From: Geopseudomonas sagittaria
GTDB lineage: Bacteria > Pseudomonadota > Gammaproteobacteria > Pseudomonadales > Pseudomonadaceae
Direction: 5' to 3'
Assembly: GCF_900115715.1 (NCBI RefSeq)
Contig: NZ_FOXM01000020.1
Span: forward strand, 1-52,631
DNA length: 52,631 nt
Shown: positions 7,463 to 35,699 of the stretch, in pieces
Layout: each line of letters begins with the position of its first letter
Numbering within the stretch: the first letter of the stretch is position 1
Position numbers and translations under genes: made by a program
Notes under the pieces: generated by a model
The model's input: only the letters and a program-made list of their open reading frames with translations
The model's database searches: none
Told to the model about the DNA's origin: nothing

Positions 7463-7474
7463 CACGCTACCGCC
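7463..7474 (-). promoter_or_regulatory. ops element (JUMPstart core), left transcription unit
   Basis: The leftward strand reads 'GGCGGTAGCGTG', the exact ops core at which RfaH is recruited to paused RNA polymerase, set in 'CCTGGGGCGGTAGCGTGCCT' as in enterobacterial JUMPstart sequences. It lies 47 bp upstream of the MBL start and about 195 bp downstream of the rfaH stop. The same core in almost the same flanks occurs at 35688-35699. Function is established for E. coli and Salmonella; here it is inferred from exact sequence plus the adjacent rfaH. Confidence 0.9.
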
Positions 7475-7523
7475 CCAGGATTTTCCGTCGGATCCTGAGA
7501 ACGTGTATTTCGCGTACAGCGCC

Positions 7524-7556
7524 CAGCCCTATGCGCGCCGGGCGGGCACAGGGCTG
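7524..7556 (-). other. Hairpin just upstream of the left ops element
   Basis: Arms 'CAGCCCTATG' (7524-7533) and 'CACAGGGCTG' (7547-7556) pair over 10 bp with one G-U wobble in the leftward RNA, loop 13 bases. It lies 50 bp before the ops core. It could be a weak end for the rfaH transcript or part of a structured leader. I see no convincing sigma70 promoter between 7475 and 7669. Confidence 0.4.
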
Positions 7557-7669
7557 AGGGCAGATTTGTAAGGTGGGGTTTGCTGGTGCGCCCGGTCCTT
7601 GGGTCTATATTCGAAAACTCTATTATTGTGCCGGCTGTCACAACCTTTTGTCTGTAAGCATTTTTCCCT

Positions 7670-8197
7670 TTATTCCGCCTTCTGAATGCTTGACAGCGGC
7701 ACACGGACTTTCTGTTCGCGGTGCAGGATGTTCATCAGCAATACCACCCGCTCGTTACCATCCATCGACAGGAATATGGCCTCCAGTTCGGCGAAGGGGC
7801 CGTTGTTGAGGCGTACCTTGTCGCCAGACTCGAGCAGTGGGCTGGGGGCGGGAGCGCTGCAGCGTTGCTGCAGGCATTCGATCAGCTCCGGGCTGACGGC
7901 CAGCGGCTGGTTGCCGAAGCCGACTACCCGGCTGACGCCACGGGTGGAGCGCAGCGGGGCCCAGTTGTCCTGCTGGCTGAGCTGGATGAACAGGTAACCG
8001 GGGAACAGGGACTCCTCGACCAGCTGCTTTTGCCCGCGCAGCAGGCGTTCGCGGCTGTGCCGCGGGCGGTAGCAGGTGTAGCCCTGGCGGAGCAGGTTTT
8101 CCTCGGCACGCTCGTCTTGGCGCGGTTTGCACTGGACCAGATACCAGGCATGCGGTTGTCGATGCTGGGGCTGTTCCGGCGTGAGTCTGCTGCTCAT
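7670..8197 (-). CDS. rfaH: RfaH, NusG-family operon-specific antiterminator
   Basis: 175 aa. The N-terminal NGN domain ('HAWYLVQCKPRQDERAEENL', 'LFPGYLFIQL', 'LRSTRGVSRVVGFG') is followed by a short C-terminal domain ('SGDKVRLNNGPFAELEAIF', 'VLLMNILHREQKVRVPL'). Length and the 'TRGVS' and 'LLNLI/LLMNI' blocks match E. coli RfaH (162 aa) better than NusG. RfaH binds ops elements in the non-template strand, suppresses pausing and Rho termination and helps ribosome loading on long operons for LPS, capsule and toxins. Two exact ops elements lie in this window. The ATG at 8197 is preceded by AAGGA at a somewhat long spacing; the upstream in-frame extension to 8302 has no family similarity. Divergent from wbpM. 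Confidence 0.93.
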   Translation of the reverse strand: MSSRLTPEQPQHRQPHAWYLVQCKPRQDERAEENLLRQGYTCYRPRHSRERLLRGQKQLVEESLFPGYLFIQLSQQDNWAPLRSTRGVSRVVGFGNQPLAVSPELIECLQQRCSAPAPSPLLESGDKVRLNNGPFAELEAIFLSMDGNERVVLLMNILHREQKVRVPLSSIQKAE

Positions 8198-8431
8198 GCG
8201 ATCTTTCGTCCTTGCCTTTGCCTTTCGGGGGATAGCTGCGCTCTGACAGGCGCGGCTTGGCTCAATCTGCATGATTTTCAGGGATTGCGCCACTTGATGC
8301 ATGCATTGGCAGTATTTTGACGAATCTGATTCTCTATCGATCTGGACTTTTCTGGAATGGCGGCAAAATGACTCATCGTGGGCTACCGTTCCCTTGGAGG
8401 CTTCTCCTCGGAATGGGTAAAGGTGGTTTTC
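8198..8431. other. Divergent rfaH-wbpM intergenic region
   Basis: 234 bp that must hold the start signals for rfaH (leftward) and wbpM (rightward). A TTGACG-like box sits near 8319, but no -10 at good spacing was found, so no promoter is called. The wbpM ribosome-binding site AGGTGG is at 8421-8426. Confidence 0.5.
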
Positions 8432-10486
8432 ATGAGCGGGAATCGGAGTTCGCTACGTCAGCGTCTGTTGACGCTATCCCCTGCCAGGAAGCGCTTGTTG
8501 CAAGTTGCGGCGGATGTGCCGCTGATATGGCTGGCGTTGTGGCTGGCCTTCTATGTGCGCCTCGATGACGCGAACCTGATTCAACCGTTCACCAGCCATG
8601 CCTGGTTGTTCCTGGCCGCGCCGGCGGTGGCTTTGCCATTGCTCATTCGCCTGGGGATGTACCGTGCGGTGATGCGTCGCCTCGGCAACGCTGCGCTGTT
8701 GACGATCGCCAAGGCGGTGACCTTTTCCGCGTTGCTGCTGGGCTTGCTGGTCTTCCTGCGTGGCGACACGGTCAGGGTGATTCCGCCCGCGGTCATCTTC
8801 AATTACTGGTTGCTGAGTCTGCTGCTGATCGGTGGCTTGCGCATCGCCATGCGCCAGTACTTCACGGGGGACTGGTACAACCTGCGCGATCAGGCGTACC
8901 GGCGCCAAGCCGGTTTGCCGAAGGTGGCGATCTATGGGGCGGGTCTGGCCGGCAATCAGTTGGCCCATGCGTTGAGCATGGGCCGTAGCCGCCGCCCGGT
9001 GGCCTTCATCGATGATGATCCGCAGCTGGCCCATCGGGTGATCGCCGGCCTGCCGGTGTATCCGCCGAGCCTGATCGAACGCATCCAGAAGGAAACCGGG
9101 ATCGAGGAGGTGCTCCTGGCCATTCCTTCGGTCTCCCGTGCGCGTCGCCGCGAGATTCTGAACATGCTCCAGTCTTATCCCCTGGCGGTGCGCTCGATGC
9201 CGGATATCGCCGATCTGGCCAGCGGCCGGGTCAAGGTCGAGGATCTGAAGGACGTCGACATCGCCGATCTGCTCGGCCGCGATCCGGTGGCGCCCAAGCC
9301 CGAGCTGCTGGCGCGCTGTATCCGTGCTCAGGTGGTGATGGTGACCGGCGCTGGCGGTTCGATCGGTGCCGAGCTGTGCCGACAGATCCTTGATGGCGAA
9401 CCCTCGGTGCTGATCCTCTTCGATCATTCGGAGTTCAACCTGTACAGCATCCAGCTCGAGCTGGAGCAGCGCATCCGTCAGGCGAACCTGCCGGTGCAGC
9501 TGGTGGCGACCCTCGGTTCGGTGCGCTATCCGGTGCGCATGCTCGAGGTGATGCAAAGCTGGAAGGTGGACACCGTCTACCATGCGGCGGCCTACAAGCA
9601 TGTGCCGATGGTCGAGCACAATGTGGCCGAGGGCGTGCTCAACAACACTCTGGGGACGCTGTATGCCGCCCAGTCGGCCCTGCGTGCCGGGGTGCGCAAC
9701 TTCGTGCTGATTTCCACCGACAAGGCGGTGCGTCCGACCAATGTGATGGGCAGCACCAAGCGCATGGCCGAGCTGGTGCTGCAGGGCTTGGCCCACGAAA
9801 CGTCGGTGACGTTGTACGGCGAGCCGGACCTGCCGGCGCAGCCCAATCACACCCGGTTCATCATGGTGCGCTTCGGCAACGTGCTGGGCTCGTCCGGCTC
9901 GGTGATTCCACTGTTTCGCGAGCAGATCAAGCGCGGCGGGCCGATCACCGTGACGCACCCGGAAATGACCCGCTACTTCATGACCATTCCAGAAGCTGCG
10001 CAGCTGGTGATCCAGGCGGGCTCCATGGGCGAAAGCGGCGATGTGTTCGTGCTGGATATGGGCGAGCCGGTGAAGATTGCTCAGTTGGCGGAGAAGATGG
10101 TGCATCTCTCCGGTTTGACGGTGCGCTCGGCGGCGAACCCGGATGGCGACATCGACATCGAGTTCACCGGCCTGCGCCCGGGGGAGAAGTTGTACGAGGA
10201 GTTGCTGATCGGTGACAACGTGTTGCCGACCGAACACACGATGATCATGCGCGCCAACGAGGCCTGCATGCCGTGGGAGGAACTCAAGGCGCTGATGGTC
10301 GAGATGGTCCAGGCGATCCGCGTGGATGATTACCCGCATGTGCGCCAGTTGCTGTGCCGGATCGTCAGTGGCTATACGCCGGATGCCAACGTCGACTGGC
10401 TGCACTGCCAGGTGGATGTTGCCGAGTCCGCAGCGCAAGCTGTGCGCAATGATGAGGTGATGGTCTCGGGAGGCAGAGGTGCGTAG
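8432..10486 (+). CDS. wbpM: Membrane nucleotide-sugar 4,6-dehydratase (WbpM/FlaA1/CapD family)
   Basis: 684 aa. About four N-terminal transmembrane helices (residues ~20-135) precede a first nucleotide-binding domain ('VAIYGAGLAGNQLA'). The catalytic SDR domain has 'GAGGSIG' at 306-312 and 'STDKAVRPTNVMGSTKRMAE', in which Met439 replaces the usual Tyr ahead of Lys443, as known for this family. WbpM converts UDP-GlcNAc to its 4-keto-6-deoxy derivative, precursor of FucNAc, QuiNAc and related sugars. The start at 8432 follows AGGTGG at 5 bases; an in-frame ATG at 8378 is less well placed. Transcribed alone, opposite to the large wbp operon, with no ops element. No dedicated 4-keto reductase gene is seen in the window. 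Confidence 0.9.
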   Translation: MSGNRSSLRQRLLTLSPARKRLLQVAADVPLIWLALWLAFYVRLDDANLIQPFTSHAWLFLAAPAVALPLLIRLGMYRAVMRRLGNAALLTIAKAVTFSALLLGLLVFLRGDTVRVIPPAVIFNYWLLSLLLIGGLRIAMRQYFTGDWYNLRDQAYRRQAGLPKVAIYGAGLAGNQLAHALSMGRSRRPVAFIDDDPQLAHRVIAGLPVYPPSLIERIQKETGIEEVLLAIPSVSRARRREILNMLQSYPLAVRSMPDIADLASGRVKVEDLKDVDIADLLGRDPVAPKPELLARCIRAQVVMVTGAGGSIGAELCRQILDGEPSVLILFDHSEFNLYSIQLELEQRIRQANLPVQLVATLGSVRYPVRMLEVMQSWKVDTVYHAAAYKHVPMVEHNVAEGVLNNTLGTLYAAQSALRAGVRNFVLISTDKAVRPTNVMGSTKRMAELVLQGLAHETSVTLYGEPDLPAQPNHTRFIMVRFGNVLGSSGSVIPLFREQIKRGGPITVTHPEMTRYFMTIPEAAQLVIQAGSMGESGDVFVLDMGEPVKIAQLAEKMVHLSGLTVRSAANPDGDIDIEFTGLRPGEKLYEELLIGDNVLPTEHTMIMRANEACMPWEELKALMVEMVQAIRVDDYPHVRQLLCRIVSGYTPDANVDWLHCQVDVAESAAQAVRNDEVMVSGGRGA

Positions 10487-10501
10487 TGGCGCGCGGGGCT
10501 G

Positions 10502-10537
10502 ACGCCGATGCGGCCCGTGTACGGGCCGCATCGGCGT
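10502..10537. terminator. Bidirectional terminator between convergent wbpM and the long operon
   Basis: Perfect 17-bp dyad: 'ACGCCGATGCGGCCCGT' (10502-10518) and its complement (10521-10537), loop GT. It lies 16 bp after the wbpM stop and touches the stop codon of the FemAB-like gene (10538). T-runs are short on both sides, so strength is uncertain, but position and symmetry fit a shared terminator for the two convergent units. Confidence 0.75.
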
Positions 10538-11485
10538 TCAATCGTTGAAGTGCCTGAGGAACAGGACGGTCCTGAGCAGCCTCGAAGGAGTCCTGGTGAC
10601 GCAAGAATAGGGCTGTTGTATTGCTCCGAATGCCCGGAAGAAATGCTCTACCGGTTCCAGCATCGAGCCTTCGAAGTCGAAACGCCGGGTGACGGTTGTA
10701 GAGAAGCGTATGGCTTCCCACATGCACAGGCTGGTGGCGCCGCTGTTGCGCAGTTCTGGGTCACCGCCTCCCATCAGGTAGTAGGCACTGTTTTCATCCC
10801 ATATCAGATAGACACCCGCATGACGGCGGCCCAAGTCGTCTTCGGCAATGAATATCTTGCGAGCGTTGCGTGCCCGACACGCGCTGTCGAGTCGTTCTAC
10901 AAGGGGGTCGGAGTTGGGCGCAGACATGCCCTGGCGGGCAAAGGTGAGACGGCTGAGGGCAAGGAACTCGCTGACGCCGAGATCGTCGCGGATGCGGACC
11001 TTGAAGCGATTGCTGGCCTTGCGTATCTCGCGCCTGATGTTCTCCTGCAGATCGCTCCACAGTGCCTGTGGGTCGCTCAGCTCGGGAAGGATGTAGGTGT
11101 AGCGGGTGGTTTGCCTGAAGCCCTGCCAGTACAGGGGCAGACAGATGCTCTGGCTGTAGTGCCAGTTCTGTGCGTAGTGATGGAAACGTGGCAGGCGCTC
11201 GACCAGGGTCTGCATCAGGTCCTGCTGTTGGGAAACCTCCCTGGCATCGTCGGGCCGCAGCCAAGGGCCCAGCGTCTGGGTGAGAGCGGGTTGGGTGAGC
11301 AGGATCAGGCCCAGGCGCCTCTCGGTGTAGTAGGGCAGGGTCGCCATGATCCTGCCGTTTTTTGCCACGGTGATCACGTCCCAGTGCTGCTCGCCGGCGG
11401 TAGCGTCAAGCCACCATGGTTGGCTGAAAATCGGGATGGATTTTTCGCTTTCGCATAGGCGGCGATAGGCATCTTTGTTGTTCAC
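10538..11485 (-). CDS. FemAB/BioF2-like GNAT acyltransferase, copy 1
   Basis: 315 aa, cytoplasmic, no signal peptide. It shows the tandem-GNAT layout of FemAB-related proteins: N-terminal half 'FSQPWWLDATAGEQHWDV', 'LTQPALTQTLGPWLRP', 'HYAQNWHYSQ', 'YWQGFRQTTRYTY'; C-terminal half 'FIAEDDLGRRHAGVYLIWD' and 'FDFEGSMLEPVEHFFRAFGA', ending 'TPSRLLR'. FemAB proteins transfer aminoacyl groups from tRNA; related BioF2-type acetyltransferases in polysaccharide loci probably modify sugars. The motifs match the gene at 26147-27196 closely, so the two are paralogues within one operon. Last gene of the 25-kb leftward unit, its stop abutting the terminator. Substrate unknown. Confidence 0.83.
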   Translation of the reverse strand: MNNKDAYRRLCESEKSIPIFSQPWWLDATAGEQHWDVITVAKNGRIMATLPYYTERRLGLILLTQPALTQTLGPWLRPDDAREVSQQQDLMQTLVERLPRFHHYAQNWHYSQSICLPLYWQGFRQTTRYTYILPELSDPQALWSDLQENIRREIRKASNRFKVRIRDDLGVSEFLALSRLTFARQGMSAPNSDPLVERLDSACRARNARKIFIAEDDLGRRHAGVYLIWDENSAYYLMGGGDPELRNSGATSLCMWEAIRFSTTVTRRFDFEGSMLEPVEHFFRAFGAIQQPYSCVTRTPSRLLRTVLFLRHFND

Positions 11486-11602
11486 GACTCAGTCCCAAAG
11501 ACCCTGCGAGGGGCTTGAAAGGATCGGAGGTATCCCTGCCCTCGAGCGTGCGGCGCGCGTTGACTGCCCACGCGTCGCTCGGGGGCGGTTTCGTGAATCC
11601 TT

Positions 11603-13645
11603 TCAGTTTCTGCTCTGGGTTGGCCGTCGGGGGACGATCAGGGTGGGTGGGAAGATGTCGGGGGATGTCCTTGCCAGCTTCTCGTGCAGTTCGTTGGTGA
11701 GGGAAAGCACATAGAGCACGTTCAGGTGCTCGGCGTCCCTGTACATCAGGTGGTCGTTGGTGACGGTCATGCAGGTCCTCTGCGTGCAGAAGAACTCCGA
11801 CATGTCGATGAGGTTCAGGTTGCTGAGCGTGCGCAAGTGGGCAATGGAGGGGTCGATGCTCGACAGCGACTGCTCGCGCGGCTTGGCGCAGGCCAGCGCA
11901 TCCTCCGGATGTCGGGCTACGCAGGTGGCGGCATCGAAGTCGAACGCGGGGTTGTCGCGGATGGCGATCACCTTGATGCCCAGGCTTTCCAGCTTTTTCC
12001 ACTGTTGCACGTATGACGGGGGGACATGCTCCGGCGATTCGGCCAGGGTCGCCCTCGTCGAGTTGGTGATCACGGCCAGTGGCTTGAGCAGGCTCAACTC
12101 TTCGACCAACTGTCTGTTCCACTCCATGCACGAGGGATCCGAGTCGGGCAGGGCGCCGAGCGGGCAGGAGCTTTTGGTGATGTTGAGGATCTTCAGCCGA
12201 CCTTGCTTGCCGATGGTGTCCAGCGCGGGTAGCCACTGCGCCGCGTGCGAGCCGCCGACCAGGGCGACCGAGGCTTGGGAGTGCCGGTCGCCATAGGTGC
12301 AGATCCTCACCTCCGGCGAGGTGATGTCCTGGTGGCAGCCATCGGTGTAGGCATCGGGCAGCAGCTCCTTCACGGTGACCAGCTCGTCATGCGGGATATG
12401 GCTGGCATCCTGCCGTTCGTCGGGGCGGCTGACGTCGTTGATTATCGCCTGCTGCAGGTTGTAGTGGCTTTGGCTGGCGATGGTGCTCTGGATGTAATAG
12501 CTCCAGGTGGCCGCAGTGGCGAGCACGGGAGTCAGGAAGGCACCGCCGATCAGGTAGGGAGCCCATGCCTTGCCGGCTTGGTACTTCTTTTTGCGGATCG
12601 GCTCCTCGATGTAGCGGTTCGTCGCCATGGCCAGCACGACGGCAAGCAGGATGATTGCCAAACCCAGCGGCAGGCTCAGGTGGCTGTTGCCGGTGTATTC
12701 GATGGTGAACGCCAGCAGCGGCCAGTGCCAGAGGTAGATACCAAAGGAAACTTTGCCTAGGGCTTTCAGCCAGGGGTGGGACAGCAGCCGCTTGGCTGGC
12801 GTCTGCGAGCTTCCCGCGCCGGAGATGATCAGCAGGACAGCGGCGGTTACCGGGATGATGGCGATGTATCCCGGGAACTTCATGGACTCGCTCACCAGAA
12901 TGCCGCACAGCAGCAGGGCGGATATTCCGATCAGGCCCAGGGCGTTGCGCAGGGCGGCGTTGAGCTGCAGGTACGGGAGCAGAAAGGCCAGAAGTACTCC
13001 GGCAAAGAACTCCCATGCCCGTGCGCCGGGGTTGAAATAGGCGCTCACCGGGTTGCTGGTGGTTTCCACCACCGAGTACAGGAAGGATGCCGCGATGACC
13101 ACGGCGATGGCCGTGATGAAGGGGAGAGTCGAGTTGGGCCTTTTCGACAGGCCGAGGACCAGGGCCAGGATCAGCGGCAGGAAGACGTAGAACTGCACCT
13201 GGATGGACAGGGCCCAGAACTGCTGCACGGGGCTGGGGGGCAGCTCCCGCGCCAGGTAGTCCACCGAGTTGCGCATCAGGCCGATGTTTTCGATCTGCAG
13301 GGCGCTGAAGGTGACCTCCTTGATGAACTGGCTCCACAGTGGTTCCGGTACGAAGAAGTAGCCTAGGAACAGGGTGGCGAGCAATACGGTGCAGGCCGAG
13401 GGGGCGATCCGTTTCACCAGGTTGCCCCAGAACACGAACGGTTGAATCCTGTTCGTGCTTTCGAGCTGGCGGATCAGTACGCCCGTCATCAGGAAGCCCG
13501 ACATGACGAAGAACACGTCCACGCCCCCAGATACCTTGTGGATCCAGATGTGATACAGGGCGATCAGGATTGCGCCGATGGCGCGAACACCCTGTATGTC
13601 ATCTCTATAGGTATCTTGTGGGTTTATCCAAGGTGCTGAGACCAT
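11603..13645 (-). CDS. OafA-type membrane acyltransferase with C-terminal SGNH domain
   Basis: 680 aa. The N-terminal acyltransferase-3 domain has about ten membrane helices and the motifs 'IQGVRAIGAILIALYHIW' and 'SGGVDVFFVMSGFLMTG'. From about residue 430 there is a periplasmic SGNH hydrolase-like domain ('VALVGGSHAAQWLPAL', and near the end 'DAEHLN', giving the catalytic Asp-His pair). Such proteins (OafA, peptidoglycan and O-antigen acetyltransferases) move acetyl groups across the membrane and O-acetylate glycans. In this operon it most likely O-acetylates the repeat unit. The start at 13645 is the first in frame; its ribosome-binding site is weak. Spacing to neighbours about 100-120 bp. 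Confidence 0.88.
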   Translation of the reverse strand: MVSAPWINPQDTYRDDIQGVRAIGAILIALYHIWIHKVSGGVDVFFVMSGFLMTGVLIRQLESTNRIQPFVFWGNLVKRIAPSACTVLLATLFLGYFFVPEPLWSQFIKEVTFSALQIENIGLMRNSVDYLARELPPSPVQQFWALSIQVQFYVFLPLILALVLGLSKRPNSTLPFITAIAVVIAASFLYSVVETTSNPVSAYFNPGARAWEFFAGVLLAFLLPYLQLNAALRNALGLIGISALLLCGILVSESMKFPGYIAIIPVTAAVLLIISGAGSSQTPAKRLLSHPWLKALGKVSFGIYLWHWPLLAFTIEYTGNSHLSLPLGLAIILLAVVLAMATNRYIEEPIRKKKYQAGKAWAPYLIGGAFLTPVLATAATWSYYIQSTIASQSHYNLQQAIINDVSRPDERQDASHIPHDELVTVKELLPDAYTDGCHQDITSPEVRICTYGDRHSQASVALVGGSHAAQWLPALDTIGKQGRLKILNITKSSCPLGALPDSDPSCMEWNRQLVEELSLLKPLAVITNSTRATLAESPEHVPPSYVQQWKKLESLGIKVIAIRDNPAFDFDAATCVARHPEDALACAKPREQSLSSIDPSIAHLRTLSNLNLIDMSEFFCTQRTCMTVTNDHLMYRDAEHLNVLYVLSLTNELHEKLARTSPDIFPPTLIVPRRPTQSRN

Positions 13646-13747
13646 TTTGATGCCTATATGCGGGGGTGACGAAAAACACTGGTGATCAGAGCAAGCGGCG
13701 CGGGGTCAGGATTGCCAGGTGAATCCGCCGCCGCCATTTTGGCGTTC

Positions 13748-15199
13748 TCATCGGTAGATCTCGCGAAACAGAACGAAATAGCGGCCGCCGATAAATGCGG
13801 CGGTGATGGCCAGGAAAAGCAGCCAGGCGGGATGCCCGGGGAACATGGCCATTGCGATCAGCAGCGGCAAGATGCAGGCCACGGCCCACAGCAGGGCATG
13901 GCCGGTAGGGCGGAGCAGGCTGCCCAAGCTGTTGCCGGCGGAGTGGTTGATCCACAGCAGCGGCCAGATCCAGCACAGTGCACTGCCGAGCGAGAACAGC
14001 GCGATGGTCATTTCCAGGCTATCCAGCATGGCCCCGATGATGATGGTGGCGGTGCGGGTGGCCAGCAGCACGGCCTGGAACAGCAGCTCCAGTTTCTGCC
14101 TTTCCATGACATCGAACAGAGAACTCAGTGGCGAGGCCACGAAGGTCATGTACAGCCAGGGCACCATCCACTGGGCGAAATAGCCCGCATCGTGCCACTG
14201 CTCGCCGAACACCAGGGTAAACAGCTCAGGGGCGATCAGCAGCAGGACCAGCGCGGGCGGCATGGCGATGTGCGCCAGGCGTTCGTGGACCTTCGCCACC
14301 AGCGGGGCCAGGCGCTGTTTCCTGTGCGCCTCGGCCGCATTGGCGAGAAACACGCCGCCGATGGCGGTGCCGATGACCGCCATGGGAATGCCCAGCACCC
14401 GTTGCGCCAGGGTATAGAGACCTGCGGCGGCCGGGCTGAACAGGGCGGCGAGCATCAGCGGCGGCAGCTGGGTGCCGGCGGTATTGAACAGCCCCGCCCA
14501 GGTCGAGAACAGCGGAAAGCGCCGATAGCGGCGGGCGGCAGCGAGGATGCCGGCAGCGGATACCCGCTTGAGGCTCGGGCTTCTCACCAGGTGCCGGCCC
14601 AGGGCGAGGCAGCCCATGCCATGCCCGCTGGCGTGACCGAGCAGCAGGGCGACGGGACCCAGTTTGTAGCCCAGCAGCTGGAGTGTCAGCGTGGTGAAGA
14701 CCTGCTTGATACGCGTGCCGGCGATGTCCCGGAAATTCTTGTGGCGCACAGCCCAGTAATGGAGTGCCAGATAGATGCCGCCGAAGAAAACGCCCGCCGG
14801 CAAGAGCCAGAGATAGGCGGAAAGCAGCGGCACACCGAGCAGATGCGCGATGGCATCGCCGGCGAAATACACCAGTATGGCGCTGAACAGGCTGGTGCCG
14901 GTTACGACCAGCAGACATAAGACCGTGACGTTCGCCGCTACCTGCTCATCCTCCGGCAGCGGGATGGCGATCTCGTAGCGCAGGCCGGCCACCACGAGAA
15001 ACAGGGCCAGCAGACCGCCATACACCGCCAGCAGGCCGAAGTCTTCCGGAGTGAACAACCGGGTCAGCAGGGGGGCGGCCAGCACCATCATCATCTGCGC
15101 GCCCGCGGTCCCGCCGACCAGCACGCTGACACCGCGGGCGAAGGGCGCCTTGGGCAGCAGCCTGCCGGCGGTTGCACTCAGTTGCCGGATCAAGCGCAT
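13748..15199 (-). CDS. Wzx-like lipid-linked oligosaccharide flippase
   Basis: 483 aa with about 12-14 hydrophobic helices spread over the whole length and the N-terminal pattern 'VLVGGTAGAQMMMVLAAPLL...FTPEDFGLLAVY' typical of the polysaccharide-biosynthesis (MOP/Wzx) family. Such proteins flip undecaprenyl-diphosphate-linked repeat units to the periplasm. It overlaps wbpE by 10 bp, so the two are probably translationally coupled. A Wzy-like polymerase (21089-22228) and Wzc-like co-polymerases in the same operon complete a Wzx/Wzy system. Confidence 0.85.
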   Translation of the reverse strand: MRLIRQLSATAGRLLPKAPFARGVSVLVGGTAGAQMMMVLAAPLLTRLFTPEDFGLLAVYGGLLALFLVVAGLRYEIAIPLPEDEQVAANVTVLCLLVVTGTSLFSAILVYFAGDAIAHLLGVPLLSAYLWLLPAGVFFGGIYLALHYWAVRHKNFRDIAGTRIKQVFTTLTLQLLGYKLGPVALLLGHASGHGMGCLALGRHLVRSPSLKRVSAAGILAAARRYRRFPLFSTWAGLFNTAGTQLPPLMLAALFSPAAAGLYTLAQRVLGIPMAVIGTAIGGVFLANAAEAHRKQRLAPLVAKVHERLAHIAMPPALVLLLIAPELFTLVFGEQWHDAGYFAQWMVPWLYMTFVASPLSSLFDVMERQKLELLFQAVLLATRTATIIIGAMLDSLEMTIALFSLGSALCWIWPLLWINHSAGNSLGSLLRPTGHALLWAVACILPLLIAMAMFPGHPAWLLFLAITAAFIGGRYFVLFREIYR

Positions 15200-16317
15200 G
15201 TGCTCCGCAACACCTTGGCGATGGCCTGCAGGTCATCCTCGCGCAGATAGGGATGCATCGGCAGACTCAGCACCTGCTCCGCCACGGCATCACCTACCGG
15301 CAGAATAGCGCCAGGATCAGCCACGGCCGGTTGCTTGTTCAGCGGCAGCGGATAGTGCACGGCGGTGGGGATTCCCGCTGCCTCGAGTTGTGCCTGGACG
15401 GCTGCGCGGTCGGCCACGCGCAGGGTGTACTGGGCGTAGACGCTGGTGTTGTACGGCTGGATCCAGGGAGTGGCCAGGACACCTGGCAGAGCGCTCTCGG
15501 CGTAGTCGCCCGCCTCGCCTGCGCTGCTGAGCAGCTGCTTGTAGCTGGCGGCGACCTGCTGGCGCAGCTGGATCTCCTCGTCGAGAATTTCCAGCTTGGG
15601 CAAGAGGATGGCGGCCTGCAGGGTATCCAGGCGGCTGTTCACCCCGACGCGGATGTGATGGTAGCGGCGATCCTGGCCGTGCCGGGCGATCTGGCGCATG
15701 ACGGTGGCCAGTTCGTCGTCGTTGGTGAAGATCGCCCCGCCGTCGCCATAGCAGCCCAGCGGTTTGCTGGGGAAGAAGCTGGTGCAGGCGATGGTGGTCA
15801 GGTTGCAGGAACGCCGGCCCTTGTAGGTGGCGCCGAAGCTCTGCGCCGCATCTTCGATCACCGGGATGCCGTGGCGCTTGGCAATCGCGTTGATGGTGTC
15901 GAAGTCGGCGCACTGACCGTACAGCGATACCGGGATGATCGCCCGGGTGCGTGGGGTGATCGCCGCTTCCAGCACGCGCGGGTTGAGGGTGTAGGTGTGC
16001 GGCTCGATATCCACGTACACCGGCCGGGCGCCGAGCTGGGCGACGGTTTCGGCGGTGGCGATGTAGGTGAAGCCGGGGCTGATCACCTCGTCGCCGGGGC
16101 CGATGCCCAGGGCCATCTGCGCGATCTGCAGGGCGTCGGTACCGTTGGCGCAGGTGATGCAGTAGCGCGCGCCGACGAAGGCGGCGAGTCTCTCTTCCAG
16201 TTCGGCCACCTCCGGGCCGAGGATGTACTGACCGTGCTCGAGGACACGTCGAATGCCGGCTTCGATACTGTCCCTGATCCGGGCTTGCTGGGCTTGCAGG
16301 TCGATGAATTCGATCAT
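15190..16317 (-). CDS. wbpE: UDP-3-keto-GlcNAcA aminotransferase WbpE
   Basis: 375 aa, DegT/DnrJ/EryC1 family PLP aminotransferase. 'GQYILGPEVAELEERLAAFV', 'CANGTDALQIAQMALG' and 'EDAAQSFGATYKG' fit the fold. The PLP lysine is Lys185 in 'SFFPSKPLGCYGDGGA', and 'RVGVNSRLDTLQAAIL' follows. From memory the protein matches P. aeruginosa WbpE almost block by block. It transaminates UDP-3-keto-GlcNAcA, made by WbpB, with glutamate. The start at 16317 (MIEFIDLQAQQ) matches WbpE; ten more upstream residues are possible. It lies far from wbpA, wbpB and wbpD, about 10 kb down the same operon. Confidence 0.93.
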   Translation of the reverse strand: MIEFIDLQAQQARIRDSIEAGIRRVLEHGQYILGPEVAELEERLAAFVGARYCITCANGTDALQIAQMALGIGPGDEVISPGFTYIATAETVAQLGARPVYVDIEPHTYTLNPRVLEAAITPRTRAIIPVSLYGQCADFDTINAIAKRHGIPVIEDAAQSFGATYKGRRSCNLTTIACTSFFPSKPLGCYGDGGAIFTNDDELATVMRQIARHGQDRRYHHIRVGVNSRLDTLQAAILLPKLEILDEEIQLRQQVAASYKQLLSSAGEAGDYAESALPGVLATPWIQPYNTSVYAQYTLRVADRAAVQAQLEAAGIPTAVHYPLPLNKQPAVADPGAILPVGDAVAEQVLSLPMHPYLREDDLQAIAKVLRSTCA

Positions 16318-16354
16318 TTCTCGGGCGTCCACGAGGCATGGTGGCAAAGTCTAT

Positions 16355-17365: not shown

Positions 17366-17417
17366 GACGTTGCGGCCCGTTGAGCAAACTTTGCGGTTTT
17401 CAATGCAGGGGGGGCGG

Positions 17418-18011
17418 CTATTTGGAGCCGGTGAACTTTGGCATCGTCGCTTCGCCCGCGGCGCTGATGCCTTCGCGCACCATGACCTTGGCGAGCGTCA
17501 GGCAGATGATCTTCAGGTCCAGCCAGAAGGACTGGTGGTCCACGTACCAGATATCCAGGCGGAACTTGTCTTCCCAGCTCAGAGCATTGCGGCCGTTGAC
17601 CTGGGCCCAGCCGGTGACGCCGGGGCGCACCGCATGACGGCGAAATTGCTCGGGGCTGTACAGCGGCAGGTACTCCATCAGCAGCGGGCGCGGGCCGACC
17701 AGGCTCATGTCGCCCTTGAGCACGTTCCACAGCTCCGGCAGTTCGTCCAGGCTGCTGGCACGCAGGAAGCTGCCGAACGGCGTCATGCGCTCGCCATCCG
17801 GCAGCGGGTCGCCGTGGGCATCCACGGCGTCGCGCATGCTGCGGAACTTGATGATTTCGAACGGCTTGCCGTCGCGGCCGGGGCGCAGCTGTCGAAACAG
17901 CACCGGGGAACCGAGCTTGCGACGGATCTGCCAGGCGACGATGGCGATGACCGGGGCGAGCAGCAACAGGCCGCAGGCGGCCGCGACGATATCGAACAGA
18001 CGCTTGAGCAT
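17418..18011 (-). CDS. Initiating phosphoglycosyl transferase (PglC/WcaJ catalytic-domain type)
   Basis: 197 aa. A single N-terminal re-entrant membrane segment ('LFDIVAAACGLLLLAPVIAI') is followed by the bacterial sugar-transferase motifs 'FEIIKFRSMRDA', the catalytic 'SLDELPELWNVLKGDMSLVG', 'PRPL' and 'RPGVTGWAQVNGRN'. The short, monotopic form resembles PglC, which puts a bacillosamine phosphate on undecaprenyl phosphate; longer WbaP/WcaJ proteins carry extra helices. It probably attaches the first sugar of the repeat unit, perhaps one made by WbpM (inference). The ATG overlaps the stop of the upstream GT4 gene (TGATG), indicating translational coupling. Confidence 0.9.
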   Translation of the reverse strand: MLKRLFDIVAAACGLLLLAPVIAIVAWQIRRKLGSPVLFRQLRPGRDGKPFEIIKFRSMRDAVDAHGDPLPDGERMTPFGSFLRASSLDELPELWNVLKGDMSLVGPRPLLMEYLPLYSPEQFRRHAVRPGVTGWAQVNGRNALSWEDKFRLDIWYVDHQSFWLDLKIICLTLAKVMVREGISAAGEATMPKFTGSK

Positions 18012-22228: not shown

Positions 22229-22331
22229 CGTGGCCGAGACTCGGTTCGGTGAGTATGGGGCAGCCGCGTTTGGTGGTTTTCAGTGCAGGCAATGTGGGGT
22301 TGCCAAGGGAAGGTTGTTGCCGGTTTTCTAA

Positions 22332-24646: not shown

Positions 24647-24779
24647 GGATCATGCCCTGGGATACTGGATTCGAGTGGTTGTCGATCGGGGCAGTCAGCC
24701 CATTTGCTGCGGCACTGGCGGGGCGCGGCTCAAGCAGGTGATGAACGGTGGCGGCTGATGGCGCGGGCCTGGGCAGGCA

Positions 24780-26144: not shown

Positions 26145-26146
26145 GC

Positions 26147-27196: not shown

Positions 27197-28773
<1,577 letters not shown>

Positions 28774-28835
28774 CTAGTGGCTGGCCATGCCCGGCGTGGG
28801 GGCATGGCGGGCAGGCTCGGTGGTGGTGTGGCGGG

Positions 28836-29858
28836 TCAGGCGTGACTGATGTACCAGGGCATGGCAGCAGCGATGCCGGCGTTGATGTCGTACTGCGGCG
28901 CATAGCCGAGCAGGCGCCGGGCTTTGCCGATGTCAGCCTGGGAATGGCGTACGTCGCCGACCCGGAAGTCTCGGTAGACCGGCTCCAGCGCGTAGTCCAC
29001 ACCGTGGCTGGCCAGGCTCTTGCGCAGCGCCGCGAACAGTTGGTTGAGGTCGGTGCGGCCGCTGACCGCGACGTTGTAGATCTGGTTGCGCGCGGCGGCG
29101 TCGCTGGTCGTGGCGGCGAGCAGATTGGCCTGCACGACATTCTCGACAAAGCAGAAGTCGCGGCTGGTTTCGCCGTCGCCGTTGATCGACACCCGCTCGC
29201 CCTTGATCATTGCCGCGGTCCATTTCGGGATCACTGCGGCGTAGGCGCCCTCCGGATCCTGGCGTTTGCCGAATACGTTGAAGTAGCGCAGACCGATGGT
29301 GGTGAAGCCGTAGTTACGGGCGAACACGTCGGCATACAGCTCGTTGACGTACTTGGTCACCGCGTAGGGAGAGAGCGGCTTGCCGATCAGGTCCTCGACC
29401 TTGGGCAGACCGGGATGGTCGCCGTAGGTGGAGCTGCTGGCGGCGTAGGTGAAGCTTTTCACCCGGGCATCGCGAGCGGCGACCAGCATGTTGAGAAAGC
29501 CGTCGATGTTGGCGCTGTTGGTGGTGATCGGGTCGTCGATCGAGCGTGGCACGGAGCCGAGGGCGGCCTGGTGGAGGACGTAATCCACGCCTTCGCAGGC
29601 TTGCCGACAGACGTCCAGAGCGCGGATGTCGCCCTGGATGAACTGGAAGCGTGCCCACTGCTCCGGGCTGACCAGGCTCTGCACCTCGTCGAGGTTGCGC
29701 CGGTGCCCGGTGGCGAAGTTGTCGAGGCCAACCACCTGCTGCCCGAGCTTGAGCAGGGTTTCCAGCAGGTTGGAACCGATGAAGCCGGCGACCCCGGTGA
29801 CCAGCCAGGTTTTGGGGGACCGGGCGAGTTCGTGCTGCAGGGATGGGTAGCGAGTCAT
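28836..29858 (-). CDS. wbpP: UDP-GlcNAc C4-epimerase WbpP
   Basis: 340 aa extended SDR enzyme: '[20 protein letters not shown]' (NAD site), '[16 protein letters not shown]', '[15 protein letters not shown]', catalytic '[16 protein letters not shown]' with '[15 protein letters not shown]' (YxxxK), '[18 protein letters not shown]' and 'FREGDVRHS'-like '[16 protein letters not shown]'. These are the signatures of WbpP from P. aeruginosa O6, which interconverts UDP-GlcNAc and UDP-GalNAc (and the uronic acids). The start at 29858 matches WbpP; the frame extends upstream but overlaps wbpA. It lies 88 bp after wbpA and 95 bp before wbpB. Confidence 0.93.
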
Positions 29859-29946
29859 GGCGTTCGATTCTGCTCGTGCGGGAGCGGGTCGGTGGCGCTC
29901 GGCGATGGTGGTGGGGCCGACCTCGGCGCGCCGCCGCCGCTCGGGC

Positions 29947-31224
<1,278 letters not shown>

Positions 31225-31341
31225 GGTGGTCGTCCAGATTGGGGCCTGTGGTGGGTCTGGGGCCATCCATGGTTCGCGTGTCTTGGTCGGGCGCCGTCCG
31301 TGCGCTCGGGGTATTCGGGTGGACAGTCGCGTGTGTGCGCT

Positions 31342-32067
31342 TCAGGAGAAATGCTCGCGGGCGATCTTCCAGGGGTTATCGATCACCAGGCGTTCGGCCT
31401 CGATATCGCCGACGATGCGTGCGGCGTGCTCCATGCCTTCGGCCAGCGCGGGCGGTCGATGCTGGACGTTGTGGGCATCGCTGGCGAGGATGGTCACCAG
31501 CCCGTACTCGAGCAGGGCATGGGCGATGAGCCGCGCCGGCTCGCCGAAGTGGCCGGCGACCGCGCCGGCGGTCACCTGCAGCAGGCAGCCCTGTTCGAGG
31601 AACGGCTTGAGCTTGCGCGGGCAGCGCATGACGCCCTTGTTGCGCTCGGGGTGGGCGATCATCGGCATCACATCATGCTGCAGCAGCCATTCGGTCAGGC
31701 GCTCGGCGCCGAAGGGCACCTCGCCGTGCGGCAATTCGAGCAGCAGCACCCGCTTGCCGTGCCATGTGCCCAGGAAAGGCAGGGTTTCCTGCTCGATACC
31801 GAGCATCAGCTCGCTGCCGTAGCGCACTTCGGCGGCTGCGGCGATCTGCAGTGGGATGCCCGTCTCCAGCAGGCCTGCCACCAGCTTTTCCCGGGCGGCC
31901 GCGATGCTGGCGATGGTGTTGTCGTAGCGGCCGGGATGGATGTGCGGGGTGCAGACCAGGTGGGTGATGCCTTGCTCGACGGCCATGCGCGCCAGTTGCA
32001 AGGCCGTGTCGAGGTCGGGTGCCCCGTCGTCGATGCCGGGCAGCAGGTGGTTGTGCAGGTCGATCAT
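31342..32067 (-). CDS. PHP-type protein-tyrosine phosphatase (CpsB/YwqE family), copy 2
   Basis: 241 aa, the same length as the copy at 158-883 and mostly identical to it: 'MIDLHNHLLPGIDDGAPDLD', 'CTPHIHPGRYDN', 'IAHPERNKGVMR' and 'ASDAHNVQHRPP'. The metal ligands of the PHP domain are all present. Likely partner is the adjacent Wzc-like kinase (32104-34371), whose Tyr tail it would dephosphorylate. A 117-bp gap to wbpA contains nothing recognisable, and no REP is seen, unlike around copy 1. Confidence 0.9.
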   Translation of the reverse strand: MIDLHNHLLPGIDDGAPDLDTALQLARMAVEQGITHLVCTPHIHPGRYDNTIASIAAAREKLVAGLLETGIPLQIAAAAEVRYGSELMLGIEQETLPFLGTWHGKRVLLLELPHGEVPFGAERLTEWLLQHDVMPMIAHPERNKGVMRCPRKLKPFLEQGCLLQVTAGAVAGHFGEPARLIAHALLEYGLVTILASDAHNVQHRPPALAEGMEHAARIVGDIEAERLVIDNPWKIAREHFS

Positions 32068-32103
32068 GGGCGGATCCTGACTCTTCAGGGCCCGGGTACC
32101 GGG

Positions 32104-34371
32104 CTAGGCTTGTGATCCTTGGGCAGCCTGTGGTTCCGCTTTCTGCGGTTTGGTGTAACCGTAGTAGTCGTAGTAGCCGCCGTAGTGGTAGCCGTGTTTC
32201 TGCGCTTTCTTGACGTCCACCTGGTTGAGCACCACGCCGGTGACCGGGGAGTTGGTCTGCAGCAGCTGGCCGACGCCCTTCTGGGCCAGGGGAATGGGCG
32301 TGGCCTCTGACTTGATCACGTAGATCTGCGCGTCGGCATGGGTGGCCAGGATGGTGGCATCGCTGACCGCCTGGATCGGCGGCGAGTCGATGATCACCCG
32401 GTCATAGCGGCTCTTGAGATGGTCGATGAGCTTGGCGAAGCGCTCGGAGGACAGCAGTTCCAGCGGGTTCGGTGGCACGGCGCCGGCGCATATCATGTCG
32501 ATGCCCTCGATGCTCTTGATGCAGTCGTCGGTCTTCGCGGTGCCGGCGATGAGGTTGGCCAGGCCGGGAGTGCCCACCGGGAACTTGAAGTTCTTCGCCA
32601 GGGTTGGCCGCCGCAGGTCGGCGTCGATCAGCAGCACCCGCTCCATCTGACCGAAGGCATAGGCCAGGTTGGCGGCCACCGTGCTCTTGCCTTCACCGGG
32701 CAGAGAGGAGGTGACCACCAGGATGCGGTGCGGCCCGTTCATGCCGGACAGCACCAGGGCTGTGCGGATGGTGCGGATCGACTCGCTGAAGCTCTTGTCC
32801 TCGTCACTGGTAAACAGGTGGGCGATCTGGCTGCGCTGGCGGTTCTTGATCAGCGGCAGGATACCCAGCACCGGCAGGTTGAGCTTGTTCTCGACGTCCT
32901 GGGTGCTCTTGAAGGTGTTGTTGAGGATTTGCAGCAGCAGAGTGATGCCAACGCTGGACACCAAGGCGAGGATGCCGGACAGGCCGACGATCAGGCCTTT
33001 CATCGGCCGGATCGGTGCGCTGGGCAGCACCGCCGGATCGACCACGCGGGCGTTGGCGGATTCCAGATCGGCGGTGGCGGTGGTTTCCTTCAGGCGGGTC
33101 ACGAAGGTTTCGTAGAGGATGCGGTTGGCTTCCACTTCACGCATCAGCTCGCGGACCTCGAACTCCTTGCGCGAGATCTTTTGAATCTGCGCCTTGTTGG
33201 ACTCCACCGAGGCGCGCAGCGAGTTTTCGTTGGCCACGGCCAGTTGGTAGTTGCGCTCGATACCGGCGACGATCTGTTCGACCTGACCGCGCAGGCTGGC
33301 GGAGGCGGCACTGAGATCGGAGCGGGCAGCTTCCAGGGCGGGGTGGCGGGCACCATAGCGCTTGGACAGCTCGTCGACCTTGGCGCGAGCCCTGGCTTCG
33401 TCGGCCTTGAACTGCTGGATCAGCGGGTGACCGAGAACGGCCGGAATGGTGGCGAGCTTTTGCCAGCCGCCGCTGCGCATGGATTGCACCTGGCGGTACT
33501 GGCTCTGCGCTTCGGCGCGCTGGCGGCGGGCGTCGATCATGCGGTCGCTGGTGGCCGACAGTTCGGCGGCGCTGACGCTGGCCACGCCGCCGATATCCAC
33601 CAGGTTTTCCTTCTCGCGAAAGGCCTGCAGGCGGTCCTCGGCCTCCTTCAGCTTGGTGCGCAGCTCGCCCATGCGGCTGTTCATCCAGGTCGTGGCCAGG
33701 ATGGACATGTTCATGGAGGCTTCCAGCTGGGCTTCGATGAAGCCATTGGCCAGGGCATTGGCAGCCCGGGTCGCCAGTTCCGCGTCGGCCATGTCGACCT
33801 GAACCTTGACCAGCTGGCTCTTGCCCACGGGCTCGATGCTGATGCGCCCCATGAAGTCCAGGGTGACTGCGTCGAAAATCTGCGTTTCGCTCGGACCGGC
33901 GGCTGCCCCCTCAAGGTCTTCCGGCTGGGGGGCGGGGACGGCCTGGGCACTATTGAGGCTGCTCAGCAGGCCGCCGATGCCGATCAGCGACTCCTCTTGC
34001 TGGCGCGGGTCGAACTCGGGGTGGTTGGTCAGGTCCAGCGTGCGTACCACCCTTTCGGCCAGGGCACGGGACTTGAGCAGGGCGAACTGGGTTTCCAGAT
34101 ATTCGTTGCCGGTACCCTCGGCGCCATAGACCTGCTCGATGGAGACGACATTGGCCGTCTTCTTCTCGATCAACAGCGTGGTCGAGGCACGGTAGGTTGG
34201 GGTGATGGCGTAGGTGGCGAGGGCTGTCGCCAGCATGATGATCAGCATCAGCGTGAGGATGCTCCACTTTCGCCGCCAGATGGTCTGCCACATCTGCAGC
34301 ATGTCTGGAGCGTCGCTCACAAGCCGCTGGGCTATCCAGGTACGATCTCTGGGCTGGGCGGGTTTGTCCAT
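32104..34371 (-). CDS. Wzc-like polysaccharide co-polymerase and BY-type tyrosine kinase, copy 2
   Basis: 755 aa, about three quarters identical to the copy at 1045-3282 over the regions compared. First helix in 'WSILTLMLIIMLATALATYA', long coiled-coil periplasmic part, second helix 'SGILALVSSVGITLLLQIL'. Walker A is 'GEGKST' at 559-564, Walker A' 'LLIDADLRRP' and Walker B 'VIIDSPP'; the Tyr cluster 'GYHYGGYYDYYGY' is followed by a tail nine residues longer than in copy 1 ('TKPQKAEPQAAQGSQA'). Start at 34371 follows GGGAGC. Differences concentrate in the periplasmic loop near residues 135-165 and in the tail, where partner choice could differ. Confidence 0.93.
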   Translation of the reverse strand: MDKPAQPRDRTWIAQRLVSDAPDMLQMWQTIWRRKWSILTLMLIIMLATALATYAITPTYRASTTLLIEKKTANVVSIEQVYGAEGTGNEYLETQFALLKSRALAERVVRTLDLTNHPEFDPRQQEESLIGIGGLLSSLNSAQAVPAPQPEDLEGAAAGPSETQIFDAVTLDFMGRISIEPVGKSQLVKVQVDMADAELATRAANALANGFIEAQLEASMNMSILATTWMNSRMGELRTKLKEAEDRLQAFREKENLVDIGGVASVSAAELSATSDRMIDARRQRAEAQSQYRQVQSMRSGGWQKLATIPAVLGHPLIQQFKADEARARAKVDELSKRYGARHPALEAARSDLSAASASLRGQVEQIVAGIERNYQLAVANENSLRASVESNKAQIQKISRKEFEVRELMREVEANRILYETFVTRLKETTATADLESANARVVDPAVLPSAPIRPMKGLIVGLSGILALVSSVGITLLLQILNNTFKSTQDVENKLNLPVLGILPLIKNRQRSQIAHLFTSDEDKSFSESIRTIRTALVLSGMNGPHRILVVTSSLPGEGKSTVAANLAYAFGQMERVLLIDADLRRPTLAKNFKFPVGTPGLANLIAGTAKTDDCIKSIEGIDMICAGAVPPNPLELLSSERFAKLIDHLKSRYDRVIIDSPPIQAVSDATILATHADAQIYVIKSEATPIPLAQKGVGQLLQTNSPVTGVVLNQVDVKKAQKHGYHYGGYYDYYGYTKPQKAEPQAAQGSQA

Positions 34372-34396
34372 TTCGGGAAGCTCCCTGGTGAATGGA

Positions 34397-34942
34397 TTAG
34401 AAGAATCCCTGGTCGATGGTGATGGTGTCGCCGGGCATCACGATGGTGTCGAGAGTTGCCGGCTCGGGAGTGCGCCCTGGGCTCTGGTCGCGGATGATGG
34501 TGATGCGCTTCTCCGAGGCGCGCTCGGTCAGGCCGCCGGCCAGGGCCACGGCGCGGCGCAGGGTCAGACCGGGTTGGAAGGGATAGCCGCCGGGTGTTTT
34601 CACTTCGCCACTGATGAAAAACTCGCGGTATTTCAGAATGCTGACCGAGACGCGCGGGTCGACCAGGTAGTCGCCCTTGAGACGTTCGGTGAGTATCTGT
34701 TCTATCTCGGCGGCGGTCCTCCCCTTGGCCCGCACGTCGCCGATGAAGGGATAGGAGAAGATCCCCGCATCGTTGAGGCGGACTTCTCCGAAGCTGAGGT
34801 CCGGCTCGCCGAATACGTTGATGTTTATGACATCGCCTGAGGCCAGCTTGTAGGTGGAGTTGTTCTCGGCCAGCACGCTGCCGCTGTTGGACAGGAGGAT
34901 GGCCATGCTCAGGGCCAGAGGGATCAAGTAACGGGAGATCAT
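34397..34942 (-). CDS. Short Wza/GumB-type polysaccharide export (OPX) protein, copy 2
   Basis: 181 aa. Signal peptide ('YLIPLALSMAILLSNSGSVLA') without lipobox Cys, then 'YKLASGDVININVFGEPDLS', 'GIFSYPFIGDVRAKGRTAAE', 'VDPRVSVSILKYREFFISG' and the end 'PGDTITIDQGFF', identical to copy 1. Lacks the C-terminal helix of full-length Wza. Unlike copy 1 it has no beta-barrel gene beside it. The start at 34942 gives the signal peptide after GAGAG; the longer open frame upstream is rejected because it would bury the signal sequence. Confidence 0.9.
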   Translation of the reverse strand: MISRYLIPLALSMAILLSNSGSVLAENNSTYKLASGDVININVFGEPDLSFGEVRLNDAGIFSYPFIGDVRAKGRTAAEIEQILTERLKGDYLVDPRVSVSILKYREFFISGEVKTPGGYPFQPGLTLRRAVALAGGLTERASEKRITIIRDQSPGRTPEPATLDTIVMPGDTITIDQGFF

Positions 34943-35179
34943 GGCTCGGTCTCTCTTGGATGAGGTTGAGGCTTGAATCGGAGCGCTTCCTGCTCCTGAA
35001 CTCTTGCCGCAACTGCTGGAGTTACAGGCCGGCACTGCTGGAGGTCTCGAGGCGGTGTGGCATGACGTAGCTGCAACCAACCTTGTCGAGACCGTCATCG
35101 CCGTTGCATTCGTCGCGGGGAGCGGGCGGCCAGCTTCACTGCCCGCCCTTCGTACTCATCAACGCTACGGTTGACCGGG
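34943..35179 (-). other. Gap with hairpin and possible gene remnant
   Basis: 237 bp between the small secreted protein and the Wza-like gene. It holds a GC-rich hairpin, GGGCGG (35124-35129) with CCGCCC (35143-35148). It also holds a start-less open stretch, 35022-35135, ending in a stop and coding an Asp/Gly/Cys-bearing string with Pseudomonas-like codons ('DECNGDDGLDKVGCSY'). The first cassette has the beta-barrel gene at this position, but I see no resemblance to it. Confidence 0.4.
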
Positions 35180-35461
35180 TTAGCTTCGGCTGGCCTTGGG
35201 CGTGGCCGGGGTCGCCGGAGTTGCTGGGGTTGCCGGGGTGGCGGGAGTGCCTGGGGTGCCCGGGACAGCCGGAGTAGCCGGGGTTGCCGGCGTTGCCGGC
35301 GTGCCTTGTTTCGATTTGGTGGATTCCTTCTCGCTCTTGTCGTTGGCTGCGAGGAGGATGCTGCCTGCGGTCGTCAGGTCGCTCGGTGCGGCGCTGGCCG
35401 CAAGCGCCTGGGGAGCGATCAGCGCCAGTGCCAGGGATAGAGTGGTCAGGGTCTTGCGCAT
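35180..35461 (-). CDS. Small secreted Pro/Ala/Thr-repeat protein of unknown function
   Basis: 93 aa, no family recognised. Signal peptide 'MRKTLTTLSLALALIAPQALA', then a short charged part ('NDKSEKESTKSKQG') and a C-terminal run of about ten 'TPA'-type triplets ('TPATPATPAVPGTPGTPA'), ending 'KASRS'. The signal sequence is very like that of the Ala-rich protein at 5279-5809, and the ribosome-binding region 'GAGGACGTTCAACATG' differs there in one base only. First gene after the right ops element and head of the 25-kb operon. The repeat looks extended and surface-exposed, perhaps glycosylated on Thr or embedded in the polysaccharide (inference). Confidence 0.8.
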   Translation of the reverse strand: MRKTLTTLSLALALIAPQALAASAAPSDLTTAGSILLAANDKSEKESTKSKQGTPATPATPATPAVPGTPGTPATPATPATPATPATPKASRS

Positions 35462-35687
35462 GTTGAACGTCCTCGCGTGCAAACCAGACAGTCTTCTGAA
35501 GGCTAGATCATCAATTCTCATGCGCCGCTGACGTGCTCGGTAACACGCGACAAGCGGTATCGGCAGGTATGCGGTTGTCAGTCCTGGGGGATGGCGGTAA
35601 CGGTAGAGACCATCCTTCGGATAGGGGCGCTATGCCTTGTGCATCTGGTCGACTGCTAGTGTTTGTTGTTTGACAGAGTCATTCAGG

Positions 35688-35699
35688 CACGCTACCGCC
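35688..35699 (-). promoter_or_regulatory. ops element (JUMPstart core), right transcription unit
   Basis: The leftward strand reads 'GGCGGTAGCGTG' inside 'CTTGGGGCGGTAGCGTGCCT'. It shares 'TCAGGCACGCTACCGCCCCA' on the + strand with the element at 7463-7474, and a similar T-rich flank. It lies 227 bp upstream of the first gene of the 25-kb operon. Exact ops core plus rfaH in the same locus makes RfaH recruitment very likely. Confidence 0.9.

Follow-up and report, generated by a model that had tools for sequence, protein, structure and literature searches.

A NusG paralogue that is scarce has to reach its targets in the face of abundant NusG. How it does so is an open question, and loading in cis has been proposed as the ancestral answer (review PMC7819879). 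A locus of Geopseudomonas sagittaria raises this question directly. The window, that is the whole stretch of DNA analysed here, comprises 52,631 nucleotides and is the complete contig NZ_FOXM01000020.1 (C44) of a 4.6-Mb genome (G000). It carries a gene for an RfaH-type NusG paralogue, rfaH (7670-8197, minus strand), and two operon polarity suppressor (ops) elements, each heading a leftward polysaccharide unit; one of them follows rfaH directly. We propose, with a probability of about 0.72, an RfaH system of the ops type whose regulator gene heads one of its own target operons, with read-through from rfaH, loading of RfaH at ops and a role for the leader RNA.

The ops core GGCGGTAGCGTG was found exactly twice in the window, at 7463-7474 and 35688-35699, both times on the minus strand, and in none of 100 dinucleotide shuffles. 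Leftward gene 5959-7416 starts 46 bp downstream of the left copy; the right copy is followed after 166 bp by the open reading frame (ORF) 35180-35521. An exact ops pair at the head of two leftward polysaccharide units had been described in a first reading of the bare sequence (hereafter the original prediction), and it is indeed there. So is the RfaH-type paralogue that was placed in the locus: the 175-residue product of 7670-8197, a specialised paralogue of the NusG family, scored 180.5 bits with TIGR01955 (cut-off 144.5) and matched E. coli RfaH chains at E ~1e-25 in a phmmer search. It scored below the cut-offs of the UpxY model NF033644 (73.6; cut-off 100) and of the LoaP model NF033641 (45.7; cut-off 125). 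Judged by RfaH, the closest named relative is Pseudomonas linyingensis (97%). Since a second RfaH elsewhere in the genome might serve these sites, this was checked; a NusG-domain search of the whole genome gave only two genes, NusG on contig C18 and the window rfaH.

In RfaH, K10, R16, H20, Q24, T72 and R73 are ops- or DNA-contact positions, and E48 and R138 form a salt bridge. Six of the nine contact residues checked are retained in the window protein (K10, R16, Q24, R40, T72 and R73 in E. coli numbering) and both salt-bridge residues are present. H20 is replaced by N, Y8 by Q and R11 by P, and T66-T68 read W-A-P. Y8, R11 and R40 are named as RfaH contact residues in PMC11001881.

Is the order rfaH then ops peculiar to this genome? 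Among 41 distinct RfaH loci, 26 have an exact ops 63-344 bp past the rfaH stop codon, on the same strand. The count becomes 25 of 40 without L113, which had been fetched in the knowledge that ops was present; L037-L040, weak NusG-type matches with no ops within 3.5 kb, were left out of the 41 loci. At least one polysaccharide-type gene followed ops in all seven named loci tested, of 12 listed. The search of related genomes that the original prediction had called for thus extends its observation of an ops right downstream of rfaH to many relatives. One relative, G027, has two RfaH genes above the cut-off (L018 and L113), with ops 1009 and 137 bp downstream.

The 14-mer GGGGCGGTAGCGTG occurred in 20 of 56 genomes, namely in 17 of the 24 with an RfaH above the cut-off and in 3 of the 32 without (G013, G041 and G042), and the reversed pattern gave a single match over all 56. 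G041 contains four such sites together with RfaH-like matches that are all below the cut-off; G042 contains one ops and no RfaH match. Across the family, GGGCGGTAGCGTGY was present in 121 of 248 genomes, as compared to 19 for the reversed control. We also drew a family sample of 86 distinct ops sites, obtained from 90 (30 loci and 60 places picked among the matches listed in the family search). Here rfaH lay within 815 bp upstream on the same strand at 23 sites, and at none on the other strand. Overall, the RfaH-ops arrangement is real and conserved.

The spacer between rfaH and ops, 195 bp long in the window, bears on how ops is transcribed. In 26 such spacers, the best sigma-70-like promoter match did not stand out against simple shuffles (mean quantile 0.59; 8/12 at quantile 0.64 in the window spacer), and a T-tract terminator was seen in one of the 26, a count that has no null. 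As the promoter matches in the spacers stay at the level of shuffles and only one spacer has a terminator, we infer that ops is carried on the rfaH transcript by read-through. The earlier suggestion that RfaH may act on read-through from its own gene would fit these spacers.

An unlikely but serious alternative is that rfaH is an independent single-gene unit and that ops belongs to the next operon, with a promoter in the spacer, their adjacency reflecting shared inheritance of an island. The window spacer has room for a promoter, possibly a non-consensus one, and a promoter is also possible in the genus: the spacers of the congeners G001, G002, G006 and G007 contain 9/12 matches at shuffle quantiles of 0.06-0.13, and that of L036 a 10/12 match at 0.19. 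E. coli RfaH is monocistronic as well (PMC7593976). This explanation has to contend with the overall promoter and terminator counts given above, and with the shortness of many spacers: 11 of the 26 measure 63-98 bp and leave 33-68 bp ahead of the RNA element described below.

About 30 bases upstream of the ops sites of this kind are conserved. The original prediction had noted some 30 bp of near-identical flank at the two window sites; this flank is real but not private to them, as it also precedes the third ops of the genome and the ops sites of relatives. Recent duplication of an ops leader as the source of the shared flank is ruled out, the block being present in many relatives.

JUMPstart-like RNA elements lie next to both cores, at 7475-7505 and at 35700-35730 (minus strand). 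With the JUMPstart model RF01707 they scored 17.3 and 21.6 bits, and neither reached the gathering score of 35. A search of the window with RF01707 at E <= 1 gave no match, and at E <= 1e-4 none of 274 class genomes had one; E. coli was the only control that gave a match. A site in G024 exceeded the gathering score (40.6 bits). The covariance model R1, built from the family elements, returned E values of 4.4e-12 for the left and 1.5e-10 for the right element, both of which are training sites. It found three elements in G000 and 18 in G000 plus seven congeners at E <= 1.2e-6, the next match being at 0.05; as all 18 sites compared (both window sites and 16 locus sites) belong to its training set, these matches are not independent, which weakens them as evidence, and the scan shows only that no additional element came to light in the eight genomes.

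Two helices were examined within the element. In the left one, the arms taken from family-alignment pair counts are 7499-7493 and 7480-7474 for the stem S2, and 7503-7500 and 7489-7486 for the crossing helix S1. The corresponding arms of the right element are 35724-35718 and 35705-35699 for S2, and 35728-35725 and 35714-35711 for S1. Directly ahead of GGGCGGUAG, the cmscan register of the stem is the same for the right site and L026, and L055 is in another register. At 99 of 164 distinct exact ops sites, five pairs form a core stem that stops one base before ops, as compared to 9.0% when the upstream bases were shuffled. At class level, at least five stem pairs were found at 16 of 29 sites (16.3% in shuffles).

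For the covariation analysis we used an alignment (A3) of 74 stem-selected sites with loops of 11-15 bases, from which 11 of another stem type (L033, L124, L125, L128, L131, L138, L152, L166, L177, L179 and L218) were removed, leaving 63 rows, 57 of them distinct. An earlier alignment, A2, had left out 13 of 48 sites. Over the 57 distinct rows S2 was paired in 99.0% of cells, a value inflated by selection of the sites on S2 core pairing, so that only the changes count: changes on both sides numbered 20, as compared to 4.7 +- 1.6 in shuffles. On a tree, five coordinated events were observed where 0.34 +- 0.57 were expected. Earlier pair counts had given 88.1% pairing (83.2 +- 0.8 in shuffles) and 16 both-side cells (4.7 +- 1.8). 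The stem S2 is thus well supported and covarying. Among distant Gammaproteobacteria (L124-L153), ops is accompanied by another type of stem, often with CCATGC before the loop, as judged by eye.

It is improbable that the conserved block works as a protein-binding palindrome in the DNA and not as an RNA structure. In favour of DNA, the block is conserved in sequence as well, yet the sequence of S2 varies while its pairing persists. Moreover, all but one of the 57 rows of A3 (56) have U-G at pair 9-36, and G-U forms occur at other pairs too; a T-G mismatch is not expected in a DNA palindrome, and the retention of U-G at this pair favours RNA.

S1 consists of the four bases just 5′ of the S2 5′ arm, pairing with four bases of the S2 loop. 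Together, S1 and S2 would form a pseudoknot of the H type whose third loop is rich in A. S1 pairing played no part in the selection of sites. The helix was paired in 91.7% of cells (81.9 +- 1.2 in shuffles), and both-side changes numbered 26, as compared to 2.9 +- 3.2 in shuffles and to a maximum of 7 in slid versions of the helix. When whole strands were shuffled, 209 of 228 pairs formed as compared to 187 +- 3.0; counting unique combinations only, the figures were 71 of 88 and 61.8 +- 2.4 (P 0.00025). On a tree derived from the element alignment's own 41 columns, leaf pairing was 0.917 (null 0.677 +- 0.106), and the pairs changed stepwise, either by wobble pairs (CG to UG to UA and UA to UG to CG) or by way of a mismatch (CG to AA to AU). 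In the window, the left site forms all four S1 pairs and the right site three of four (CGTA/AACG), the pair adjoining S2 being A-A. A pseudoknot is therefore likely in the Pseudomonadaceae, as far as stepwise covariation can tell. No S1 was seen by eye at the class-level ops sites L124-L153.

Does the system end at the borders of the locus? A third ops element was found at G000:C26:238519, with a 20-mer around ops that has one mismatch outside the core. The ten ORFs around it include matches to Wzz (upstream), Polysacc_synt_2, DegT, cytidylyltransferase and NeuB, and also a polysialyltransferase-like protein, Wzy_C and a GDP-mannose dehydratase-like protein. This ops precedes a NeuB/O-antigen-type cluster, on which the window RfaH would act in trans. 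Contrary to the original prediction, the third element implies that the module is not self-contained.

Nor is one transferable module, another of its proposals, supported. In G002, rfaH and ops are accompanied by the left unit, and a search limited to that place found no right unit; no clean right-unit boundary was found in G002. The congeners G001, G004, G005, G006 and G007 have the two ends of the right unit with a middle that varies, G004 being rearranged. These layouts suggest that rfaH travels with the left unit and that the right unit is gained or lost separately. The rfaH region of G003 is without any of the other window genes tested, and the genome has no ops element near rfaH; its single strong one is remote. 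This last case could speak for the idea that the window ops copies are relics, with RfaH now confined to serving the O-antigen-type cluster of the other contig and both window units running independently of it. We consider this highly improbable, as both window elements retain an exact ops and paired stems and as ops beside rfaH is retained in 26 of the 41 RfaH loci.

We return to the proposal of a regulator gene heading one of its own target operons. Polymerase would transcribe rfaH and continue, without a recognisable terminator, into the leader with its JUMPstart-like element and ops. It would pause at ops, where RfaH would bind the exposed ops hairpin and accompany polymerase along the left polysaccharide unit. 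The same RfaH would serve the right unit through that unit's own leader. S2 ends at ops or one base short of it, which would place it 10-12 bases from the paused RNA end, close to the spacing of the his pause hairpin. The position of the stem suggests that it stands in or at the RNA exit channel during the ops pause, where it could prolong the pause or prevent backtracking. E. coli polymerase pauses at ops U11, in a complex reported to differ biochemically from hairpin-stabilised pauses (PMC11001881).

A more specific version is put forward tentatively, and we rate it as possible but rather doubtful. Here ops would be more than a 12-nt signal by itself: it would be the 3′ end of a co-transcriptional pseudoknot that forms at the exit channel on arrival of polymerase at ops and would hold or ratchet the paused complex, so that RfaH newly made from the same transcript has time to load in cis. 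The order rfaH, pseudoknot, ops would then have survived as a link between NusG paralogues encoded in cis and E. coli RfaH, which acts in trans.

Several observations weigh against the proposed system. In fifteen of the 41 RfaH loci, the 400 bp downstream of rfaH contain no exact ops of the same strand; here ops is farther off, lies on the opposite strand (L032) or is missing from the DNA examined. Among these fifteen, no ops at all was found for L085, L088, L091 and L092 in about 10 kb upstream and 10 kb downstream (about 10 kb for L091). The class-level ops 14-mer occurred in 35 of 274 genomes and its reversed control in 14; the reversed-control matches at class and family level imply that some ops sites are chance. 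Many of the 86 family-sample sites look like coding sequence. The exact 12-mer occurs four times in the whole genome, and the fourth copy (G000:C38:152547-152558, minus strand; L276) has no R1 match. It lies about 150 bp before a 268-residue ORF, with the contig end some 550 bp away, and it could be a chance match since the reversed control occurs twice in the same genome. As for the protein, AlphaFold2 with 17 sequences folded the KOW domain as a beta-barrel, not as the autoinhibited alpha-hairpin.

The RNA part meets its own difficulties. In the earlier S2 count, the number of pairs changed on both sides was not significant (96 of 500 shuffles), nor was the number of further pair types for S2 (33 of 500) or S1 (71 of 500), and RNAalifold on alignment A1 gave a short helix inside ops instead of S2. 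The first S1 test, on 35 combinations unscreened for stem type, was weaker (83 as compared to 72.7 +- 4.5, P 0.017). The S1 tree has no same-branch pair-to-pair events (null 0.42 +- 0.65), and the S1 counts rest on few independent events. In 23 enteric leader rows, several of them near-identical, CAGU and GCUG are both intact in 15; a one-strand change breaks the helix in four (CAGU with an altered partner in L256, L262 and L264, GCUG without CAGU in L253) and neither strand is present in four, so that these rows give no covariation support for S1. A 2024 study has also suggested that the ops and RfaH sequences alone set the E. coli cycle, and it ascribes ops pausing to these sequences (PMC11001881), which means that the RNA part may be dispensable.

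The genes that the two ops elements precede are all on the minus strand. The left unit (161-7416), cut by the contig end, begins with a metallo-beta-lactamase/beta-CASP RNase-like protein (5959-7416; Pfam Beta-Casp 3.6e-32, RMMBL 8e-14). It continues with a BBP2_2 outer membrane protein (4023-5252) and wza-like (3409-3948), wzc-like (1045-3324) and cpsB-like (161-883) genes. Of 19 named loci, 12 (L075, L076, L078-L084, L086, L089 and L090) also have a beta-CASP RNase-like gene close to rfaH, always on the rfaH strand and upstream of rfaH in nine. Opposite ORF 5279-5878, on the plus strand, GGCGGCAGCTTG occurs three times at 45-bp spacing (5468-5569).

The right unit (8474-35521), headed by the right ops, opens with a 113-residue ORF (35180-35521) that has no Pfam match at E 0.1 and whose DNA looks repetitive. 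Then come wza-like (34397-35098), wzc-like (32104-34371) and cpsB-like (31342-32067) genes. The remaining genes encode a UDP-sugar dehydrogenase, epimerases, glycosyltransferases, an asparagine-synthase-like protein, a flippase and acyltransferases. Upstream of the right leader, positions 36000-36400 have 45% GC as compared to 63-67% around them, and this stretch could be a promoter or silencer site; one promoter-like match was found at 36252-36224 (minus strand; 0.9 expected). A hybrid histidine kinase gene flanks the unit (36570-39497, minus strand); in G002 it is immediately upstream of rfaH. Farther on, a small signal recognition particle RNA was found at 39806-39902 on the plus strand (RF00169, 78.2 bits).

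With an ops-type rfaH directly before ops in many relatives, cis loading and ops recruitment become testable in one natural locus, and a covarying RNA element at the exit channel would offer a second handle on ops pausing. The locus thereby provides a testable link between cis-acting and trans-acting RfaH relatives.

How does the locus compare with known systems? In the UpxY system of Bacteroides and the LoaP system of Bacillus, the paralogue is encoded with its target operon, as is the window RfaH; LoaP requires an RNA hairpin in the leader (PMC12691694). The hairpin that LoaP binds is of the UNCG type. Unlike them, the window protein is below both family cut-offs and its recruitment is presumed to be by ops. 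The contrast with enteric bacteria that the original prediction had drawn is not new, as RfaH-type genes in or beside polysaccharide genes are known from Shewanella (cluster CL7) and Azotobacter. Wang et al. 2020 place RfaH in putative Shewanella exopolysaccharide operons and find envelope genes over-represented as neighbours of RfaH clusters CL2 to CL8 (PMC7593976), and in the Azotobacter genome rfaH adjoins lipopolysaccharide loci (PMC4465626). The accessible parts of these two reports describe no ops adjoining rfaH. In the passages that an open-licence literature search returned, there was likewise no report of rfaH, a short spacer and ops in this order on one strand, or of a JUMPstart pseudoknot.

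For JUMPstart itself, a stem-loop has been reported as conserved (PMC2864571). RF01707 contains a five-pair stem one base short of ops, and the right window site is in the same register; unlike the model, with a consensus loop of about 8, the window loop has 12 nucleotides, and the crossing helix covaries in the Pseudomonadaceae. As compared to E. coli, where RfaH and ops govern the rfb and waa operons, the window rfaH lies beside its targets and directly ahead of one ops, residues 20 and 66-68 of the protein differ, and so do the sequence and loop of the RNA stem. The ops 12-mer, the protein family and the long polysaccharide operons are common to both, the K-12 rfb and waaQ leaders also carry a stem abutting ops, and like E. 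coli RfaH the window protein would act in trans on a remote cluster.

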